Assembly (NCBI RefSeq): GCF_003663945.1
Contig: NZ_RCCH01000002.1
Span: 124,001 to 188,000 of the forward strand
Source of the DNA: Lacinutrix venerupis
Lineage (GTDB): Bacteria > Bacteroidota > Bacteroidia > Flavobacteriales > Flavobacteriaceae
Length of the DNA stretch: 64,000 nucleotides
Direction of reading: 5' to 3'
The first letter of the stretch is position 1. Every line of letters starts with the position of its first letter. Below the pieces are notes generated by a model that did not search any database, was not told the DNA's origin, and saw nothing but the letters and a program-made list of their open reading frames with translations. This document shows positions 12,290 to 25,495 of the stretch, piece after piece. The translations under genes were made by a program, and so were the position numbers.

Positions 12290-15200
12290 ATGAAAATCCC
12301 TACTTATGTTAAAGCAGTATTTATTGTTTCACTACTTTTCCTTAGCCTCAAATCCTTTGGACAAAATTTTGAACCATTTACACCTAGATTCGATGAAGAT
12401 TTAAAAGGAGATATTATATTAATAGGTAACAACATTCTTGGCCCAAATAATAATGCCTTTAATAACAATAATGTTTACAATCATAATGTTGATATGAATT
12501 ATATCGACATTGATAGCGACAACACAACCTTTAGCTCCTCTAGTGCAGATTTAAACATTCCTAATCCAAACTGCTATTTAATTAAATATGCAGGACTTTA
12601 TTGGGGTGCAGTAAATCCTGGAAACGAGCCTATTACAAATGTAAAATTTAAAGGCCCAAGTGGTGGTTATAATGACATCCAAGGTACTGTTATATTCGAT
12701 GCTAATGGCAATTCTGTAGATGGAGGAAACAGTTTTTCTTATGCATGTTATGCAGATGTTACAGATATTGTTACCGCTTTTGGTTCTGGTGCCGATTTAG
12801 GAACTTACACTGTTGCTAACGTATCTTCTGGCACTGGAGAAACATCAACCTTTAACCCATACAATGGTACTGGTCAATCGGCAGGTTGGTCTCTTTTTGT
12901 GGTTTATGAAGATCCTACTTTACCAGGAAAATCAATTACAAGTTTCGATGGTTTTAGTGCCATTAGTGCATCACAAAATCCAACTGCAGATATTTTAATA
13001 GATGGATTTAGAACAGTACCAGCTCCGGCTCCAGTAAGAGCTAATTTTGCGTTTGCTACATTAGAAGGAGATAGTCCTATTTTAGGTGATCAAATGCTAC
13101 TTAATGGTATAAATTTATCTGCAGCAGATCGTCCTGTAAACAACTTTTTTAATAGTTCAGTTACTCAACTCGATGCAACACCGGTAAACAATAGAGTACC
13201 AAACAGTACAAATACTTTAGGTTTCGACACCGGAGTTATGGCTATTCCAAATCCTGGAAATTCTGTTATTGCAAATGATGCTACATCAGCAACAGTTAGA
13301 CTTGAAACTGCTGGAGATACTTATTTTCAATATTTTTTCGCCTTTGCTGTAGAAATAATCGAACCAAATATTGTTTTAACAAAAATTGTAGAGGATGATG
13401 CTGGTAATAACATTGGCGGACAAATAGTAGATTTAGGAGACTCTTTAAACTATGTTATTGGTTTTCAAAATACAGGAAATGATAATGCCACAAACTTTCA
13501 AATTAGAGATGTTCTACCTGTAAATATAATTTTTAATTATCCTACAGATTTAGTACTTCCGCCAGGTGTAACTGTTGCTAGTTACAATCCTACTACAAGA
13601 GAAATTATTTTTAATATTGAAGATTATTTAGTTGAGGAAAACGATCCTGTTTACGAAATTAGAATTGAGGTTCAAGTGGTTGATAACTGTAATGAGTTAG
13701 CAGATGCTTGTTCAAATATTATAAACAATCAAGCATTTGCGAGCTACAATGGTTTTTTTAATCCAACGTTTGAAATTACAGACGACCCAAGTTTAAGTAG
13801 CAATACAGGATGTCTACTTACTCCACAAGCAACAAATTTCTTAACCGATTTAGATTGCCAATTTATTCAAGACGAAATTCTTTGTGGTTCTAGTTTAGAA
13901 ATCACTGCCGCAGATGGTTACGATTCGTACTCATGGTCTACAAGTTCTACAGGATCACCTGTAATTGGCACAAATCAATCTATAACAATTACAGAAACAG
14001 GAACTTATTACGTATATAATACTGCTATTGCGCCATGTCAATCTATAGAGCAACAATTTAATGTTGAGCTTTATGGTGGCGAAATAGATAATCCTGTAAT
14101 TCCATATGCCGATGAGGTTGTTACCTGCCCTAACGATGGTGAATTATTACCAAATATATTTTTATGTGGCGCAGGAGATTTTAGAGACATACAAACTAAT
14201 ATTGCTGGAGCAACGTCAATAATTTGGGAACAATTAGACGAATCTAGTTGTGCTGCCGTTTCAAATCCAGATTGTGCAAATGAAGATAATGCATGTGTAT
14301 GGAATCAAGTAGCAACAGGATCAGACTATATAGCTAATACTGCTGGACAATTTAGATTAACAATTAACTATCAAGGTGGTTGCTTTGTGCAATTTCATTT
14401 TAATGTTTACCAAAACTTACTTGAGCCAACAGTAGTTGCAACAGATATAATTTGTACTACACCAGGAAGTATTACTGTAAACAATGTTCCTTCTGGATAT
14501 GAGTACAGTTTAGATAACGTTACATTTCAAACTAGTAATATTTTTACTATCAACACAGCAGGATTTTATAATGTTTATATTAGACAAATTGGTGTCGATA
14601 CAAACCCATGTATTTTTAGTGTGTTAGATGTACAAATTCGAGATCGAAATTTTACAGTTTCATCAATTGTTACTCAACCTTTATGTCATGGAGAATTAGG
14701 TAGCATTTATTTAGCTGCAAATGATGTAGATCCTCAATATTCTTTTGAATTATTTCAAAATGCAACCTCAATAAATAGTGTTGGTCCAATAGTAGATAAC
14801 ACGTATTCTTTTGAAAACTTAAATCCTGGCGATTATACAGTTACAGTTGAAACTGAAAATGGTTGTACTTATACTGAAGATATAACAATTACTGAGCCAC
14901 CACTATTAACAACAACAGCAGCGATTACAAGTCCGCTAACATGTACCGATGGTGAAATAACTGTTTATCCTCAAGGAGGTACACCTCCTTATTTTTACTT
15001 TGTAAACAGTACTACAGATTTTCAAACGGTTCCTGAAATAGTAGTTACAACTGCTGGAGACTACGATATTACAGTCGTTGATTCTAACAACTGTAGCGCT
15101 AGTACCACAATTTCAATAGATGTTATTCCAGAACCCAATTTTAACGTAACAACTAACGATATTACTTGTGCAGGATTAGATAATGGAAGCATTGAAGTTA

Positions 15201-18200
15201 ACGTAACAAACGCTAATGGAAACACTATAGAATATAGTATTGATGGTGGTGTTACATTTTTTAACTCTCCAGTTTTTACTAGTTTAGCTGTAGGAAATTA
15301 CGATGTCGTTCTATTATATACTGTTGGAGCTTCAGTTTGTAATACAGATCCGCAAACAGTTACTATTCAAGAAAGCGACCCAATAAACGTAACAGCAACA
15401 TTAACTACAGATTATACTTGTTCTACTAATGGAACAATTAGTGTAACTCAAGTTTCAGGTGGTAACGCTCCTTATCAATATAGTATAGATGGTGTTAATT
15501 TTCAATTAGGCAGTACGTTTTCAAATTTAACAGCCGGTACTTATACTATTACGGTTCAAGATGCCAGCAACTGTACACAAACAAGTAATGATATAACTAT
15601 AGATCCTTTAAATCCTCCAACAGATTTAACTTTTAATGTATCTCCCATAACTTGTCCAACTAACACTGCAGACGTTACTTTAACAGCTACGGGAGGAACT
15701 GGTGTTTTAGAATATCAAATTATTGCTCCAACATCTAGTGCAACAGCATACCAAACAGCTACAATATTTTCTGGATTAGCTCCAGATACTTATACTTTTC
15801 AAGTTAGAGATGAAAACGATTGTATTTATAATGAATCTATAACAATAGATCCAATTGTAACACCAACTGTAAATGTGGTATTAACTTCAAATTTAGATTG
15901 TACTGCAACACCAGATGCCGAAATTTCTGGAACTATTACTGGTACTACTCCATACACCTATGCTGTTTCTATAGATGGTGGAACATACACAGATTTAGGT
16001 ACTACTCCACCAACATTTAATTACGCAACTTCAACACCAGGAACATATCAATTTCAAATAACAGATGCTAATAACTGTATTGCAGAATCTAATGAAATTA
16101 CTATAACTCCTATTACTCCTCCTGCATTAAGTGCTGTAGTAGAATCACAAAGTGTTATTTGTAATGGAAATTCTAACGCATCTATAGATATAACTATCGA
16201 CGATACTGTTGGTACAGCTCCATTTACAATTAACGTTAATAATGACACTACTGGTGTAAACTATGGAACTCAAACATCTGGATTAACTGCCGGAACTTAT
16301 ACAATAACAATTACAGACGCTAATTCTTGTACAGGAACAGAAACCATTACTATTAGTGAACCAGATCCTATTGTAATGACTTACGATACTGTAGATATTA
16401 CGTGTACAAGTACTGGTGTTTCTCAAGGATCGGTAATTGTTACTTCAGTAACCGGTGGAACCGCACCTTATAATTACTTTGTAACAGGAACAAATGGATA
16501 CTCAAATTCTGAATTAAATAATACAGGATCTACCTCTGTAAGTTTTGATGTTGTAGACTTTGGCTTATATGAAATTAATATAGTAGATGCTAATGGTTGT
16601 TCTATTTTACAACAAGATGTATTAGTCGCTTCTCCTCCAACAGATTTAGATATAGATATAACTACAAATGTAGATTGTACAATTGGAGGTGAGGCAGAAG
16701 TTAGTATTGGCTCTACATTAAGTAGTACAGGACCATTTCATTTTAGTATTTACGAAGGCCCAAGTACTGTTTATCCTACTGGTACGTGGTTACCAGAAGA
16801 CAGTCCTGGTAGTCAATCGGCAACATTTACAGGTTTAACCTCTGGAGTAACCTATACGTTTATAGTTTATGATGAATCGACAATGTGTAGTTATTATGAG
16901 CCTGCAACTACTCCAATACCAACAAACTCAACACTTACAGTTGATGCGGTAAGCGCTAACAATATTACATGTACTGGTAGTGCAGATGGAAATGTTTCTT
17001 TTACTGTAAATAGCATTTATAGTGTAGATACTGCAATTTCTTTCGAAATTTTTAATTCATTATCATTACAAACCACAGGTGTTTCAGGAACAGGAACTGT
17101 AACTGCAAACGGTTCTTTTACTGAAACAAATTTAGGTCCGTTACCTTTTGGTAACTACTTTGTTTCAATAACAGAAACTTCAGGAACAAACGCTGGTTGT
17201 GGCATAGTTACAGTTCCTTTTAATATTACAGAATCTGCATTTTTATTAAGCTTAACCACTTCAGTAGATCAAAATGCAAATTGTAACCCTAATTCTGGAG
17301 TTATAAGTGCTGTGGCACAAAACGGAACAGCACCTTATCAATACCAAATAACAACAACTGCTACTGCTCCAACAGCTACAGATCCTGCTTGGGTAACAGC
17401 AAGTACATTTAATGAAGATGCTGGTAATTATTACGTTCATGTAATAGATGCTTATGGCTGTATTATTTCAAGTCCAGTGGTAGTTTTACCAATGGATGAC
17501 ACTCCTGTTATTTCTGCTGTGGTAGACAATTTATGTACTACAGATGAAGGAAATTTTGAAATTGATGTTGCCTTAGATAATCCTGGTATTGCTCCATATA
17601 GCTATAGTTTTAATGGTGGTGCATTTCAATCTCAAAATGCTCCGTTTACAATTTCAAATTTATACTCAGGAACATATACTATAGAAGTTCAAGATGCTAA
17701 TGGTTGTGGCAATACGGTAACTGTAAATATTCCTGCTCCAATTACAATTACTCCAAATGTAACTGCATTACCAACTTGTAATGATAATGATGGAGAAATT
17801 ACAATAGATGCTTTAAATGGTTCTGGATTATTTAGTTATAGTATTAATCCAAATCCATCATCAATAAGTTTAAGTGGAAACATATTTTCTGGAGTACCAT
17901 CTGGTATTTATGTGGTAACAGTTACAGATAACGTTACATCATGTACAGAAGATGTTACTGTTTCATTAGCTGCTGCTACTGCTCCAACATTTACAACGTC
18001 ACCAACTTCGGTAACTTGTTTTGGAGACAATTCGGGAACTTTTAACATTAACGTTAGTGGCTACACTGGAGCTTATACTTATAATGTTTTTGATAGTTCT
18101 GGAACATCAGTTACTGGTGTAGTTAATGCTAACACCTCAACAAATCCACTTACTGTTTCAGGTATGCAAGCAGGAACTTTTTCAGTAGAAATTATAGAAA

Positions 18201-20500
18201 CCGAAAATCCATTTTGCTCTGCAACCTCAACAGTTGTTATTAGCTCACCTTCTGAAGCATTAACACTTACTGTTACAGAAACTTCTAATGTTACTTGCGA
18301 TAATAATATTGGAACAATAACTGCTGTTGCTTCTGGTGGTTGGGGAAATTTAGAATATGAATTAACAGGAGACGCAACCGTTCCATATAGTTCTAATGGC
18401 GCTTTCGAAAACTTAGCTGCAGGAACATATACTGTTAATGTAAGAGATAATGAAGGTTGTATTGTTTCAGAAAGCATAACATTAAATACACCAAATCCTA
18501 TAAACGCAACATTTACAGCAAGTGCTAATACTGTTGATTGTTATGGAGATCAAAACGCAAGTATTACCGTAAGTAATGTTACTGGCGGACAAGGTTCTAA
18601 TTACACATATACTTTAAATACAGATTCACCTACAACGAGTATTTCTGGACCACAAAACAGTAATGTTTTTAATAACTTAGGTGCTGGCACATATTCTATA
18701 ACCATTACAGATGGTTATAATTGTGAATTAAACTCACCAACAATTACAATAAATGAACCTACACCTATTACAGCAAGTTTAATTAACTCTAGTACACAAA
18801 CTTGTCCTATAACTTACGAGCTTACTTTATCGGCAAATGGTGGAACAGGAATTTATACTTATAGTGACACTAGTAATTTTGCTAACATTTTAGGAACATT
18901 TACAAACTCTACAACAATAGCTGTTACTCCAGGAACATACCAATATTATGTAAGAGATGCCAACGGTTGTATTGCTAATGTTTCTAATGAAATTACTATA
19001 GATACACTACCAGATTTAGTAATTAACTTACAAAGCGATAATCCTACAATTAATTGTGCTGGTGATAGCAACGGAAGTATTGTAGCAACTGCTCAAGGTG
19101 GTTTAGGAAATTACACTTACGAGCTAGAAGATGCTTCTAATAACATTACAACAACAACAGACAGTCCTGCATCTTTTACAGGATTAACCGCAGGAACATA
19201 TACTGTAAATGTTATTAGTGACAACTGTTTAACAACATCTGAAACAGTAACAATAACAGAGCCTACCAACCCATTACAAGTAGATTTTGAAGTAAACGAA
19301 ATTACTTGTAGCGGAAGCAATGATGGCATTTTAACAATTAACGCTTCTGGTGGAACAGGTATTATTAAATATGCCATTTCGCCTCAATTAGATCAATTTT
19401 TCGATACTAATGTTTTTGAAAATTTAGCACCAGGAACATATCAATTTATTGCTCAAGATATTTTAGGTTGCTTCTATACAGATACATTTACAATTACAGA
19501 TCCTATTCCTGTAATTCTACAAATTGTACCAGATTCTATGTTTGAAGAAACTTGTGAAGGTGAAGCAAATGGTGCTTTTAGTATAGAAATCTCTGGTGGC
19601 AGTTTACCTTATAGTGTGGCTTTAGACGATATTAATGGAACATACACTGTTGGGACAGCTACGCAGACTGTTTTTGATTTTACAAATTTAAACGGAGGTG
19701 ATCATGTTGTGTATGTTATAGATGATTTAGGTTGTGAATCCGAATGGAATATTACGTTCCCTGAAGCTGTTAAGTTAGATCCAATAATAACTCTTGAATA
19801 TTTATGTGACAACAACTCACTTACAAATATTGTTACAGTATATGTAGATGAAAGTATTACAGATACAAGCGTATTGTCTTATTCTTTAGATGGTATTGGC
19901 TCCCAAACAAGTAATGTATTTACCAATGTAGATTATGCGTCTGGAGCAGAACATTATATAGAGGTTACGCATGAAAACGGTTGCATACAATACACCGAAT
20001 TTTTCACTATTGAAAACTTTCAACCTCTTGCTTTAAATTTAATTGAAGGTGATGCTCCTGGTGAAATTATTGCGCAAACTACCGGTGGTATTGGAACTTA
20101 CAGCTATACGTTTAATAACCAAAATTACGGTACTACAAACGAATTTTCTGTTACACAAGTTGGCACATACACCGTTATTGTTACAGACACTTCAGGATGC
20201 CAAGCTCAAGCTTCAATAAATATAGATATAATTGGACCTTGTATACCTAATTACTTTTCTCCAAATGGTGATGGTACTGCAGATACTTGGGCTCCAGGTT
20301 GTGTAGATGATTTTCCAGATTTAACCTTCGATATTTTCGATCGTTATGGTCGAAAAGTAGCAACCTACCGAGTTGGACATTATTGGGATGGACGCTATAA
20401 TGGCACAGAATTACCAACAGGTGACTATTGGTATGTAGTAAGACCAAATAGCGAACTCTTAAAGAAAGAATACGTAGGACATTTTACACTATACAGATAA
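12290..20500 (+). CDS. sprB: SprB-like giant surface adhesin
   Basis: 2736 residues, the largest gene in the window. A signal peptide (residues 1-25, ending SFGQ) is followed by an N-terminal adhesin module to about residue 360 and a DUF11-like conserved repeat (about 365-490, with IVDLGDSLNYVIGFQNTGND). From about residue 715 to 2645 there are some 22-23 SprB-type repeats of 65-95 residues. Each starts near TC..(G)DGxI.V and contains GGxAPYxYSIDG and AGTYTITVxDANGC, with a cysteine near each end. The last ~85 residues (YFSPNGDGTADTWAPGC, FDIFDRYGRKVATY, YWDGRYNGTELPTGDYWYVV) are a type B T9SS C-terminal domain. SprB is the mobile adhesin that moves along the cell during gliding; the F. johnsoniae protein is about 6500 residues, so this is a short version. 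Confidence 0.82.
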   Translation: MKIPTYVKAVFIVSLLFLSLKSFGQNFEPFTPRFDEDLKGDIILIGNNILGPNNNAFNNNNVYNHNVDMNYIDIDSDNTTFSSSSADLNIPNPNCYLIKYAGLYWGAVNPGNEPITNVKFKGPSGGYNDIQGTVIFDANGNSVDGGNSFSYACYADVTDIVTAFGSGADLGTYTVANVSSGTGETSTFNPYNGTGQSAGWSLFVVYEDPTLPGKSITSFDGFSAISASQNPTADILIDGFRTVPAPAPVRANFAFATLEGDSPILGDQMLLNGINLSAADRPVNNFFNSSVTQLDATPVNNRVPNSTNTLGFDTGVMAIPNPGNSVIANDATSATVRLETAGDTYFQYFFAFAVEIIEPNIVLTKIVEDDAGNNIGGQIVDLGDSLNYVIGFQNTGNDNATNFQIRDVLPVNIIFNYPTDLVLPPGVTVASYNPTTREIIFNIEDYLVEENDPVYEIRIEVQVVDNCNELADACSNIINNQAFASYNGFFNPTFEITDDPSLSSNTGCLLTPQATNFLTDLDCQFIQDEILCGSSLEITAADGYDSYSWSTSSTGSPVIGTNQSITITETGTYYVYNTAIAPCQSIEQQFNVELYGGEIDNPVIPYADEVVTCPNDGELLPNIFLCGAGDFRDIQTNIAGATSIIWEQLDESSCAAVSNPDCANEDNACVWNQVATGSDYIANTAGQFRLTINYQGGCFVQFHFNVYQNLLEPTVVATDIICTTPGSITVNNVPSGYEYSLDNVTFQTSNIFTINTAGFYNVYIRQIGVDTNPCIFSVLDVQIRDRNFTVSSIVTQPLCHGELGSIYLAANDVDPQYSFELFQNATSINSVGPIVDNTYSFENLNPGDYTVTVETENGCTYTEDITITEPPLLTTTAAITSPLTCTDGEITVYPQGGTPPYFYFVNSTTDFQTVPEIVVTTAGDYDITVVDSNNCSASTTISIDVIPEPNFNVTTNDITCAGLDNGSIEVNVTNANGNTIEYSIDGGVTFFNSPVFTSLAVGNYDVVLLYTVGASVCNTDPQTVTIQESDPINVTATLTTDYTCSTNGTISVTQVSGGNAPYQYSIDGVNFQLGSTFSNLTAGTYTITVQDASNCTQTSNDITIDPLNPPTDLTFNVSPITCPTNTADVTLTATGGTGVLEYQIIAPTSSATAYQTATIFSGLAPDTYTFQVRDENDCIYNESITIDPIVTPTVNVVLTSNLDCTATPDAEISGTITGTTPYTYAVSIDGGTYTDLGTTPPTFNYATSTPGTYQFQITDANNCIAESNEITITPITPPALSAVVESQSVICNGNSNASIDITIDDTVGTAPFTINVNNDTTGVNYGTQTSGLTAGTYTITITDANSCTGTETITISEPDPIVMTYDTVDITCTSTGVSQGSVIVTSVTGGTAPYNYFVTGTNGYSNSELNNTGSTSVSFDVVDFGLYEINIVDANGCSILQQDVLVASPPTDLDIDITTNVDCTIGGEAEVSIGSTLSSTGPFHFSIYEGPSTVYPTGTWLPEDSPGSQSATFTGLTSGVTYTFIVYDESTMCSYYEPATTPIPTNSTLTVDAVSANNITCTGSADGNVSFTVNSIYSVDTAISFEIFNSLSLQTTGVSGTGTVTANGSFTETNLGPLPFGNYFVSITETSGTNAGCGIVTVPFNITESAFLLSLTTSVDQNANCNPNSGVISAVAQNGTAPYQYQITTTATAPTATDPAWVTASTFNEDAGNYYVHVIDAYGCIISSPVVVLPMDDTPVISAVVDNLCTTDEGNFEIDVALDNPGIAPYSYSFNGGAFQSQNAPFTISNLYSGTYTIEVQDANGCGNTVTVNIPAPITITPNVTALPTCNDNDGEITIDALNGSGLFSYSINPNPSSISLSGNIFSGVPSGIYVVTVTDNVTSCTEDVTVSLAAATAPTFTTSPTSVTCFGDNSGTFNINVSGYTGAYTYNVFDSSGTSVTGVVNANTSTNPLTVSGMQAGTFSVEIIETENPFCSATSTVVISSPSEALTLTVTETSNVTCDNNIGTITAVASGGWGNLEYELTGDATVPYSSNGAFENLAAGTYTVNVRDNEGCIVSESITLNTPNPINATFTASANTVDCYGDQNASITVSNVTGGQGSNYTYTLNTDSPTTSISGPQNSNVFNNLGAGTYSITITDGYNCELNSPTITINEPTPITASLINSSTQTCPITYELTLSANGGTGIYTYSDTSNFANILGTFTNSTTIAVTPGTYQYYVRDANGCIANVSNEITIDTLPDLVINLQSDNPTINCAGDSNGSIVATAQGGLGNYTYELEDASNNITTTTDSPASFTGLTAGTYTVNVISDNCLTTSETVTITEPTNPLQVDFEVNEITCSGSNDGILTINASGGTGIIKYAISPQLDQFFDTNVFENLAPGTYQFIAQDILGCFYTDTFTITDPIPVILQIVPDSMFEETCEGEANGAFSIEISGGSLPYSVALDDINGTYTVGTATQTVFDFTNLNGGDHVVYVIDDLGCESEWNITFPEAVKLDPIITLEYLCDNNSLTNIVTVYVDESITDTSVLSYSLDGIGSQTSNVFTNVDYASGAEHYIEVTHENGCIQYTEFFTIENFQPLALNLIEGDAPGEIIAQTTGGIGTYSYTFNNQNYGTTNEFSVTQVGTYTVIVTDTSGCQAQASINIDIIGPCIPNYFSPNGDGTADTWAPGCVDDFPDLTFDIFDRYGRKVATYRVGHYWDGRYNGTELPTGDYWYVVRPNSELLKKEYVGHFTLYR

Positions 20501-20521: not shown

Positions 20522-21523
20522 ATGAAAAAAATCACATTATATATCGTTCTTTTTATCGTTTCTAATAGTTTTGGACAAGAACTTAATTTACCCGTTTGGA
20601 CACAATATTTAGCAGATAATGATTTTGTTATTTCACCAACCTATGCAGGAATTGGAGATAATTTAAGAATTAGAGCTAACGGATTAACACAATGGGTTGG
20701 CATTAAAAACGCACCAGACAATCAAGCTCTATATGCAGATTTTAGAATCGCTAACCGCTCTGGTGTTGGTATTTCATTGTATAATGACAAAAACGGAAAT
20801 ACGCGCCAAAAAGGAGCTAAATTTTCGTTTGCTCAACATTTAGTATTAGATTATAAATCACGTCAATATTTATCGTTTGGTTTATCTTACAATATTAATA
20901 GTTTTAGAATAGATATAGAAAATTTTGAAGGTATAGAAGAGATGCCAATTGTAGATCCAAGTATTGTAGACGATAGAGCTATAAACAATAATAATTTTGA
21001 TGTTGGCGCTCTTTATCGCTATAAAATGTTTTATTTAAGCTTAAATGCAAATAATATTTTAGAAAAAGATATTGATGCTTTTACAGGAATTGAACCAAGT
21101 AAACTATTAAATTTCCAAGCTTATACTGGTTACATAATTCAAACACGAAAGAATACTGAAATAGAACCATCTATATTTTATCAAAGATATAATAACGATG
21201 GCCGTTCTAGTACAGATATTAATGTAAAATATAGAAAATTTAATCGTAAAGAAGATTATTATTGGGTTGGCGGATCTTATCGTTTTTTAAACGATCAAAT
21301 TGGAAAACCATTAAACATTGGACCTATGGCAGGTGTAATGAAAAGCGGTTTTTATTTTGCCTATTCATACCAAGTAACAATTAACGATTTGTCTGGTTTT
21401 AATTCTGGCACACATTCTATTACCATTGGAATAGATTTTCTACAAGGTATTAGCGATTGTCCTTGTACTAAAGGCACAAGTTGGAGAAAGTACAGAGGCG
21501 CTGGTTTAAATAAAAAGAATTAA
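20522..21523 (+). CDS. sprF: SprF, PorP/SprF-family outer-membrane protein
   Basis: 333 residues starting MKKITLYIVLFIVSNSFGQE, a signal peptide cleaved near FGQ. The rest is a PorP/SprF beta barrel: LPVWTQYLADNDFVISPTYA, GDNLRIRANGLTQWVGIKNA, SLNANNILEKDI, DYYWVGGSYRFLND and a C-terminal SGTHSITIGIDF. It begins 21 bases after the sprB-like stop, so the two are surely co-transcribed. In F. johnsoniae, SprF is needed for SprB to reach the cell surface and pairs with this type B substrate. The stop codon overlaps the end of the convergent monooxygenase by four bases. Confidence 0.87.
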   Translation: MKKITLYIVLFIVSNSFGQELNLPVWTQYLADNDFVISPTYAGIGDNLRIRANGLTQWVGIKNAPDNQALYADFRIANRSGVGISLYNDKNGNTRQKGAKFSFAQHLVLDYKSRQYLSFGLSYNINSFRIDIENFEGIEEMPIVDPSIVDDRAINNNNFDVGALYRYKMFYLSLNANNILEKDIDAFTGIEPSKLLNFQAYTGYIIQTRKNTEIEPSIFYQRYNNDGRSSTDINVKYRKFNRKEDYYWVGGSYRFLNDQIGKPLNIGPMAGVMKSGFYFAYSYQVTINDLSGFNSGTHSITIGIDFLQGISDCPCTKGTSWRKYRGAGLNKKN

Positions 21524-23823: not shown

Positions 23824-23875
23824 ATTAGTTTTATTTTACTAATATATAAATAAAATTAGTAAGCGCTTACTAATT
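23824..23875. promoter_or_regulatory. Double palindromic operator upstream of the TetR gene
   Basis: Positions 23854-23875 form a perfect 22-base palindrome (AATTAGTAAGC and its complement). A second site at 23824-23841 keeps the half-sites TTAGT and ACTAA with the same 8-base spacing. The site centres are 32 bases apart, about three helical turns. They lie 6-58 bases from the tetR start. Confidence 0.7.
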
Positions 23876-23934
23876 CTTTGAAGAATAGATTTAAAAATTA
23901 ACACTTTTTAATAATTATGTATTACTTTCTGCCC

Positions 23935-23942
23935 TACTTTTG
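23935..23942 (+). promoter_or_regulatory. -7 box (TACTTTTG) ahead of the structured leader
   Basis: TACTTTTG matches TAnnTTTG exactly. Transcription would begin near 23949, about 9 bases before the first stem of the RNA element at 23958, as expected for a leader riboswitch. No clear TTG is seen at -33. Confidence 0.5.
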
Positions 23943-23957
23943 CAGACTTAAAATTAA

Positions 23958-24020
23958 TTATCAAGAATCTCTAAAAGGAGATAGCAACCTGCAATAACAA
24001 GCAAGGTGCTAAATAGATAA
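23958..24020 (+). ncRNA. Compact SAM-I-like riboswitch candidate upstream of the NhaC-type transporter
   Basis: Sixty-three bases that can fold as a three-way junction. P1 pairs TTATC (23958-23962) with GATAA (24016-24020). P2 is ATCTCT/GGAGAT around an AAAA loop (23967-23982). P3 pairs GCAACCTGC (23984-23992) with GCAAGGTGC (24001-24009) around an 8-base loop, with one bulged A and an AA/U internal loop. The AAGA joining segment after P1 and the GCAACC...GGTGC core of P3 equal the conserved SAM-binding parts of SAM-I riboswitches. The long P2 with kink-turn and pseudoknot, and P4, are missing. A 12-base palindrome (CCAATTAATTGG, 24022-24033) follows without a T run, so control may be translational. 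No covariance test was possible. Confidence 0.5.
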
Positions 24021-24100
24021 GCCAATTAATTGGAACAAATGTTAACTCATCTTTCTTATTATTTTGATTGCTATTTCCTTTTTTAAAATGAAAAAGAAAA

Positions 24101-25414
24101 ATGGCAAGTCCACAACAAATTACTCCAAAATTCTCAGCTTTAATTCCGCTATTCGTATTTGTATTTACGTTTTTAGGTGTTGGAATTTATCAAAACGACT
24201 TTTATGCGCTTCCTGCTCCAATTGCGGTTATAGCAGGAATTATTGTTGCATTTTTAATGTTTAGACAATCTATTAATTCTAAAATTGAAACGCTTTTAAA
24301 AGGTTGTGGAGATGATAAGATTTTAACCATGTGTTTAATCTATTTATTAGCTGGAGCATTTGCTACCATCACCAAAGCCACAGGAAGCGTTGATGCTATT
24401 GTTAATTTAGGATTAGATTTTATAGCCATACAATACATTTACTTTGGTGTGTTCGTCATTGCTGCATTTTTATCGGTTTCAACAGGAACATCGGTTGGCG
24501 CAATTGTAGCTTTAGCTCCTATTGTTATTGGTTTTGCAGATAAAAGTAGTGTTGATTTAGCCATACTTTGTGGTGCGCTTTTAGGAGGAAGTATGTTTGG
24601 TGATAACTTATCTGTAATATCAGACACTACCATTGCTGCAACACAATCTTTAGGTTGTAAAATGAGTGATAAATTTAAGCAGAACATTAAAATAGCATTA
24701 CCAGCCGCATTATTTACTATTGCGATACTAATTATTCAAGGTTTAGGTTTAGAAACTAACGTTGAAGACACAACAGTTTACAGCTATTCTGTAATTAAAA
24801 TATTGCCTTATTTATTAGTTATTATACTATCTATTATAGGAATTAATGTATTTGTAACTTTACTTTTAGGTGTTATTGCTGGTGGGCTTTTAGGAATTGT
24901 TTATGGAGATTTCACGTTAATTGAATCTACCAAAATAGCATACACAGGTTTTACAAGCATGACCGAAATATTTTTACTATCGCTATTAACAGGTGGTCTA
25001 GCTGCTTTAGTCTCTAAAAATGGAGGAATAGATTACATATTAAACAATATTAAAAAACTGATTAAAAACAAAACCTCTGCACAGTTAGGAATTGCTTCTT
25101 TAGTTGGTGCGATAAACATGGCAATTGCAAATAATACAGTATCAATAATTATTGCTGGTCCAATTGCTAAAACTATTAACGATGAGTATGGATTAGATAA
25201 TAAAAAAACAGCTTCAATTTTAGATATTTTTGCTTGTATTGTACAAGGTATTTTGCCGTATGGCGCACAAGTTTTAATGATTTTAAGCTTTTCGAATGGT
25301 AAAATAGATTACTTAGATTTAGTATCTAATACTTGGTACTTATTACTATTATTTATTTACACGATATTATTTATAACATTTAAATCTTTACGTTCGCAAA
25401 GAAGTACTAATTAG
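24101..25414 (+). CDS. NhaC-superfamily transporter, possibly a methionine carrier (MetT-like)
   Basis: 437 residues with about eleven hydrophobic segments. The family marks are TGTSVGAIVALAPIVIGFAD, LCGALLGGSMFGDNLSVISD and TTIAATQ, and a repeated late motif with MAIANNTVSIIIAGPIA. These are typical of NhaC-type proteins, usually labelled Na+/H+ antiporters. Comparative genomics of methionine metabolism has assigned some NhaC-superfamily members (MetT) as methionine transporters because they lie under SAM riboswitches. The SAM-I-like leader directly upstream makes that reading attractive here, but the substrate is inferred. A rho-independent terminator follows. Confidence 0.82.
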   Translation: MASPQQITPKFSALIPLFVFVFTFLGVGIYQNDFYALPAPIAVIAGIIVAFLMFRQSINSKIETLLKGCGDDKILTMCLIYLLAGAFATITKATGSVDAIVNLGLDFIAIQYIYFGVFVIAAFLSVSTGTSVGAIVALAPIVIGFADKSSVDLAILCGALLGGSMFGDNLSVISDTTIAATQSLGCKMSDKFKQNIKIALPAALFTIAILIIQGLGLETNVEDTTVYSYSVIKILPYLLVIILSIIGINVFVTLLLGVIAGGLLGIVYGDFTLIESTKIAYTGFTSMTEIFLLSLLTGGLAALVSKNGGIDYILNNIKKLIKNKTSAQLGIASLVGAINMAIANNTVSIIIAGPIAKTINDEYGLDNKKTASILDIFACIVQGILPYGAQVLMILSFSNGKIDYLDLVSNTWYLLLLFIYTILFITFKSLRSQRSTN

Positions 25415-25440
25415 CTGTAAACCAAAATTTTATAATCATT

Positions 25441-25475
25441 AAAAAAGCGCCTAAAAATTAATTTAGACGCTTTTT
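25441..25475. terminator. Bidirectional terminator between transporter and OYE genes
   Basis: Stem AGCGCCTAAA / TTTAGACGCT with one mismatch, flanked by A and T runs on both sides, between two convergent genes. Confidence 0.8.
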
Positions 25476-25495
25476 ATATTTATCATTTATTGGTG

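Follow-up and report, generated by a model that had tools for sequence, protein, structure and literature searches.

The window, i.e., the whole stretch of 64,000 nucleotides of DNA that was analysed, carries a gene for a transporter of the NhaC superfamily, and this gene is preceded by a putative promoter box, a riboswitch aptamer and a leader for which two competing folds are predicted. The features that matter for the argument are the following.

23935 to 23942, + strand: putative promoter -7 box TACTTTTG, from the sequence and from the motif in the leaders of relatives
23953 to 24049, + strand: SAM-I/IV riboswitch aptamer, a full match to the Rfam model RF01725 (SAM-I-IV; model positions 1-99 of 99)
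23958 to 23962, + strand: 5' strand of P1, UUAUC, from sequence and Rfam alignment
23967 to 23982, + strand: P2 hairpin without internal loop, from sequence, Rfam alignment and family covariation
23973 to 23987, + strand: proposed switching strand (L2, 3' strand of P2 and 5' start of P3), AAAAGGAGAUAGCAA, the complement of 24068 to 24082
23983 to 24010, + strand: P3, whose AA/U internal loop is part of the SAM pocket, from Rfam alignment and covariation
23995 to 23999, + strand: P3 loop UAACA, one strand of the pseudoknot, from Rfam alignment and covariation
24016 to 24020, + strand: 3' strand of P1, GAUAA, from sequence and Rfam alignment
24022 to 24033, + strand: 3' hairpin (P5-like), CCAA/UUGG, CCAAUUAAUUGG, in the Rfam consensus
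24040 to 24044, + strand: pseudoknot strand UGUUA, which pairs with the P3 loop UAACA, from pair changes among leaders
24066 to 24110, + strand: proposed sequestor hairpin over the start codon, which shares 24068 to 24082 with the anti-P2 helix, from predicted folds
24068 to 24082, + strand: anti-P2 strand UUGCUAUUUCCUUUU, the proposed antisequestor, from complementarity and forced folds
24101 to 25414, + strand: transporter gene, 437 amino acids, NhaC superfamily (PF03553), probably a MetT-like methionine transporter

Further upstream lies a gene for what we take to be a very large repetitive protein with a C-terminus of the gliding/type-IX type (12290-20500), and after it, at 20522-21523, what is presumably a PorP/SprF-like gene. 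Between the transporter gene and a convergent gene of the OYE family, a hairpin with A and T tracts was noted by eye at about 25441-25475; it is perhaps a two-way terminator, and it is absent from the report of the terminator scan.

When the 64-kb window is searched with all 4227 Rfam families, RF01725 scores 68.1 bits at 23953-24049 against a curated cut-off of 41.1, with an E value of 3.5e-9, which is above chance. RF01725 is the best of the SAM-clan models at this element, and the genome of the window contains no other match to it. As an aptamer, the riboswitch before the transporter is an ordinary further member of a described family. The initial annotation had read here a three-way junction of 63 bases, and its pairings in P1 (UUAUC/GAUAA), P2 and P3, together with the joiner AAGA (23963-23966), are confirmed by the sequence and the Rfam alignment. 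P2 is a single hairpin of six pairs, five of them Watson-Crick and one U-G, with no kink-turn, and the interval from P3 to P1 has no helix, neither in the window nor in the Rfam consensus of RF01725. It was also right that the kink-turn, the P2 pseudoknot and the P4 helix of SAM-I are absent, while the view of the element as free of pseudoknots was wrong: a pseudoknot between the P3 loop and the 3' tail is present. The end of the element had been placed too early, at 24033, before the UGUUA strand, and the 3' hairpin, in which 98.8% of the cells are paired across the 62 leaders described below, had been overlooked. The proposal of a minimal SAM-clan architecture is not supported, as all 99 positions of the SAM-I/IV consensus are matched, and this full-length match also rules out a new minimal SAM class. 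SAM-I (RF00162) is ruled out as well: P2 is a six-pair hairpin, and the only RF00162 match of the genome lies elsewhere. On the transporter element of two relatives, RF00162 scores 28.5 and 27.6 bits, under its cut-off of 44.4. Nor does the six-pair P2 show the P2a/P2b division with PK-1 of SAM-IV, a class judged here by its features and not by a separate model score.

The protein scores 95.4 bits with PF03553 (cut-off 23) and stays under the equivalog cut-off of TIGR00931, the model for the NhaC Na+/H+ antiporter proper (87.8 against 370 bits); a sequence search for a relative of solved structure gave none at E 0.001. From a search for transporter relatives, the best 80 of 143 were kept, corresponding to 79 loci. 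At an identity of at least 72%, the element precedes the transporter in 62 of 63 loci, and the GATAGC core of the element lies 115-148 bases upstream of where the transporter match starts; at the 63rd (L073) the contig ends, yet the 3' half of the element is present. The remaining 16 loci (41-57% identity) have no SAM-family match at the gathering score. RF01725 elements were also found before four relatives of 61-62% identity (L138, L140, L142 and L144) and before two of 53-56% (L217 and L218). In a sample of 296 genomes of the order, 16 have a transporter match with an E value of 1e-60 or lower, and ten such loci (L213-L222) were scanned with Rfam: two are above the RF01725 cut-off, one narrowly misses it with 40.3 against 41.1 bits, and the other seven have no SAM-family match up to E 0.5. 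RF01725 itself occurs in 42 of 299 sampled genomes of the family (49 matches, 18 of them with the transporter motif downstream) and in 34 of 395 sampled genomes of the phylum (36 matches). At two further loci a transporter-type aptamer stands without a transporter frame; it is followed by a short frame with a stop in L146 and, after about 215 bases, by a TonB-receptor gene in L148.

The box TACTTTTG has the sequence TAnnTTTG, which we take to be the Bacteroidetes-type -7 promoter motif, and it ends 15 bases before P1. A -7 box about 16 bases upstream of the element had been noted before, and the leaders of the relatives bear this out: the motif is found 10-16 bases before the UAUC of P1 in 58 of 62 leaders, and in 2 of 62 when a control stretch of equal length further upstream is inspected instead. 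Because the aptamer begins 15 bases past the box, the mRNA of the transporter probably starts at or near the aptamer.

Among the 62 close transporter leaders, P1-P3 are nearly invariant: of the 18 pairs in these three helices, 17 are without a double change. This is too little variation for covariation to serve as proof of P1-P3, and its use among these leaders was dropped. For the same reason the wider family is needed, represented by an alignment (A2) of 36 of the 49 matches of the family sample, i.e., 5 of the 18 linked to the transporter and all 31 others. As P2 is displaced from one subgroup to another in the MAFFT alignment, its pairs were counted by script from the junction ends. With the relatedness of the sequences uncorrected, here as in the pseudoknot comparisons below, 95.0% of the cells in P1-P3 are canonical compared with 73.3% in shuffles, and 138 cells have double changes compared with 48, neither value being reached in any of 500 shuffles; the 27 additional pair types are equalled in 25 of 500. 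Across these 36 elements, the check for compensatory changes in P1-P3 that the initial annotation had proposed supports the structure. The class is defined by the pseudoknot between the P3 loop and the 3' tail. In an alignment (A1) that holds the window together with 61 of the 62 leaders (L073 has no full leader, and L075, near-identical to L050, was dropped by eye), the pseudoknot pair in columns 53 and 98 is A-U in 31, G-U in 18, G-C in 12 and unpaired in 1. In further transporter-type leaders a different pair of the pseudoknot changes from U-A to C-G or A-U, and the loops UAACA, CAACA and AAACA are matched with the tails UGUUA, UGUUG and UGUUU. Over 77 elements, loops pair better with their own tails than with swapped ones (score 10.83 against 8.75), and some elements outside the transporter group have no convincing loop-tail pairing.

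Consider now the leader between the aptamer and the gene. In the window, the strand 24068-24082 can form 15 pairs with 23973-23987 at -19.3 kcal/mol, which is equalled by 1 of 200 dinucleotide shuffles. Over the 62 leaders this anti-P2 complementarity has a mean z of -3.4; in 48 of them at most 10 of 200 shuffles do equally well, and 14 miss this mark. When the aptamer is scanned with 13 sliding segments, the complementarity is concentrated in the P2 arm, with mean z values of -3.3 and -2.7 for columns 19-42 and 27-50, -1.4 for columns 11-34, and values between -1.0 and +0.3 for the remaining ten. The anti-P2 helix comes in two forms, as it includes either the 3' strand of P2 and the start of P3, as in the window, or nearly the whole arm, as in L085, L086, L088, L089 and L092. 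When the arms are swapped, a leader pairs better with its own P2 arm than with those of other leaders by a mean of 1.66 kcal/mol, but in just 22 of 62 does the own arm rank within the top tenth, with kinship uncorrected. Even the transporter leaders do not all have the P2 platform, since the four leaders from another genus (L138, L140, L142 and L144) have no significant pairing with the 5' half of the aptamer (11-42 of 100 shuffles are equal); at z -2.5 to -4.4, the start hairpins of these four are strong.

The same strand is predicted to take part in a hairpin over the start codon. With the aptamer forced to form, the mean probability that the AUG is unpaired is 0.23 (0.02 in the window), and with the anti-P2 helix forced it is 0.67 (0.59 in the window); the region from -13 to +6 is more open in the latter case in 60 of 62 leaders. 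Taken alone, this comparison proves little, because forcing one helix frees its competitor. When only the linker and the start region are folded, the AUG is unpaired with probability 0.23, compared with 0.45 for shuffled linkers and 0.57 for a comparison set of 44 reading frames of the window. The start hairpin itself has a modest advantage over shuffles (mean z -1.1 over the 62 leaders, 15 of which are equalled by no more than 2 of 50); the hairpin of the window is equalled by 5 of 200 shuffles. In unforced folding, the leader of the window keeps P2 with a probability of 0.86 and has 3.4 expected anti-P2 pairs, its minimum-energy fold retains the start hairpin, so that the OFF state is predicted even without SAM, and at least six anti-P2 pairs are expected in 28 of 62 leaders; these are equilibrium calculations that take no account of pseudoknot, ligand or transcription order. 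An out-of-frame AUG lies within the proposed start hairpin at 24088-24090, 13 bases before the start codon, and is also seen in close relatives, L050 among them.

From these folds a mechanism can be formulated. When SAM is plentiful, it would bind to the core of P1, P2 and P3 and hold the aptamer together, as expected from the function of the family. The strand 24068-24082 would then be free to pair with the start-codon region in the hairpin 24066-24110, which would block the ribosome and turn the importer of methionine off. When SAM is scarce, 24068-24082 would invade the P2 arm at 23973-23987 and open the aptamer, the start codon would be set free, and the importer would be made. Since the AUG is buried with the aptamer and open with the anti-P2 helix, and since no terminator-like site was reported, the start codon is expected to be buried when SAM is bound and free when it is not; both this direction and the level of control, translation rather than transcription, are predictions of the model. 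The element is, in our judgement, probably a SAM-I/IV riboswitch that acts as a translational OFF switch and has its exchange strand in P2 rather than in P1.

The alternative that survives best, though we consider it unlikely, is that the riboswitch acts on transcription, so that the anti-P2 helix with a U tract, or some other hairpin, stops the RNA polymerase. The anti-P2 strand does end in a U tract, and in two other RF01725 loci, ahead of metK (L129) and of a gene for a Cys/Met enzyme (L134), a GC-rich hairpin and then a U run stand between aptamer and gene, from which it follows that terminators are probably used elsewhere in the family. In the present leader, however, the U tract is inside the helix and not after it, a scan of 23850-25480 in the window reported no terminator-like site, and termination in the absence of SAM would presumably switch a methionine importer the wrong way.

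Slightly less likely still is that strands are exchanged in the usual way, through P1, and that the complementarity to P2 arises incidentally, the aptamer being rich in purines and the leader in pyrimidines. This would accord with what is seen in other RF01725 members. The linker could be evaluated in 43 of 56 non-transporter elements of the family sample (the rest have no frame of 45 amino acids in range, or a linker of less than 25 bases), and in 18 of these it pairs with the 5' half of the aptamer so well that no more than 5 of 100 shuffles do the same, the mean z being -1.45; according to the listing, 17 of the 18 duplexes include the 5' strand of P1. For the transporter leaders, on the other hand, the segment with the 5' strand of P1 (columns 3-26) has a mean z of +0.33 against -3.3 for the P2 arm, and dinucleotide shuffles preserve the pyrimidine content. 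Returning to an exchange strand in P2, a more general statement, in which we place even confidence, is that the 62 flavobacterial leaders have their switching strand in the P2 arm, of which the leader carries an antisense copy that would either open the aptamer or cover a start without Shine-Dalgarno sequence, while other members are based on P1; the strand would have turned over and the logic would have stayed.

The ligand of the transporter-leader element is taken by analogy from the function of the family, i.e., SAM, and it is rather improbable that a SAM-clan element in this lineage has come to sense another compound, e.g., SAH or some other adenosine compound. In other riboswitch classes small changes in the core shift the ligand, and 31 of the 49 matches of the family sample have no transporter motif within 400 bases downstream, their genes being mostly of unknown function. 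Against this, the core in the window fits the SAM-I/IV consensus, and elsewhere in Bacteroidota RF01725 stands ahead of the two genes named above, metK in L129 and a Cys/Met PLP-enzyme gene in L134. Thirty of 48 listed downstream frames, one being a transporter, were run against Pfam, and 20 of the 30 proteins have no match at E 0.01. Non-transporter loci include L012, L022, L027, L028, L031, L034, L037, L130, L133 and L137; the small downstream proteins of L027, L133, L137 and L153 look alike by eye. RF01725 precedes a VapE-like gene in L040, an N-formylglutamate amidohydrolase gene in L045 and, in two different families of the phylum (L136 and L149), genes for AAA_5 ATPases that resemble MoxR, with the MoxR model below cut-off. 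An apparent mobile island (L223; G059:C1:1709500-1729400) has three matches within about 16 kb, one before an integrase gene, one before a short HTH-like frame (below the Pfam cut-off) and one at the far end. Type I restriction-modification genes lie between them, with a methyltransferase that uses SAM on the same island as a sensor for it. For the other RF01725 matches in general, a mobile-element origin was considered and rejected, as ten proteins gave no PHROGs match at E 0.01; one protein had no plasmid match and another no phage match.

That the match is decayed or due to chance and without function has nothing in its favour and can be set aside as next to impossible, given an E value of 3.5e-9, a core nearly invariant in 62 leaders and a conserved promoter position.

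Methionine is the likely substrate of the transporter, which would be an importer. The genomic context can be described as follows. In the genome of the window there are three SAM riboswitch classes, represented once each and ahead of three different genes: SAM-I/IV precedes the transporter, SAM-I what we take to be a metY-like gene and SAM-II a presumably metK-like gene, the latter two riboswitches being divergent and about 75 kb from the transporter element. Among 22 genomes with a transporter-linked element, SAM-I is found in 20 and SAM-II in 22. SAM-II precedes metK at 21 of its 22 loci, and at the remaining one the contig is cut. Of 34 SAM-I matches 30 were read, and by their N-terminal sequences the genes are presumably metY-like in 14, metH-like in 12 and without a call in 4. 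RF01725, PF03553, the conserved linkage and the occurrence of RF01725 before metK and the Cys/Met-enzyme gene support the initial annotation in reading a riboswitch of the SAM clan ahead of a methionine-related transporter of the NhaC type. In Firmicutes, MetT of the NhaC superfamily stands under S-box riboswitches (passages of PMC2940859). Another NhaC-type gene, of unknown function, stands under a lysine riboswitch (passages of PMC11477304), which calls for caution with the methionine reading. The association suggests methionine as substrate for a transporter family so far named just as antiporters.

What is new here is the proposed P2-based platform, and the aptamer itself is already known. 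It is the platform that is worth testing; the aptamer belongs to a known family, and its target makes sense. None of the literature matches listed deals with the expression platform of SAM-I/IV riboswitches, and the literature passages covered, which lie outside the crystal-structure paper of the class, do not describe a P2-based exchange strand for it; the crystal-structure paper may say more.

Compared with known systems, SAM-I carries the same P3 core and AAGA joiner as the window element, which differs from SAM-I (RF00162), as that class is generally known, in having no kink-turn, no PK-1 and no P4. With SAM-I/IV (RF01725) it shares the P1-P2-P3 junction, a P2 without internal loop, the 3' hairpin and the P3-loop/3'-tail pseudoknot, and no difference was found in the aptamer of the window. 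That family was published in 2010 as the SAM-I-IV-variant (passages of PMC2864571); a P2 without internal loop or kink-turn is given as one of its features (passages of PMC2864571 and PMC6890682), and a P4 helix is ascribed to the class (passages of PMC6890682). With SAM-IV the element has in common the 3' hairpin P5 and a second pseudoknot, PK-2 (passages of PMC6890682), but it lacks the P2a/P2b split and PK-1. The Firmicute MetT genes resemble the present case in the NhaC superfamily and in a SAM-clan riboswitch ahead of the gene (passages of PMC2940859); here the organism belongs to Bacteroidota and the riboswitch is SAM-I/IV, not SAM-I, and the likeness drawn here is one of superfamily and riboswitch. 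According to a review, the switching sequence in strand-exchange riboswitches is most commonly in the first helix (passages of PMC10907184). The 17 of 18 duplexes of other RF01725 members that include the 5' strand of P1 agree with this rule, from which the 62 transporter leaders would depart. In Flavobacterium johnsoniae, from a group lacking Shine-Dalgarno sequences, structure in the start region is reported to tune translation (passages of PMC6847099), and the leader described here offers a concrete model of how a strand-exchange riboswitch could control translation in such Bacteroidetes.
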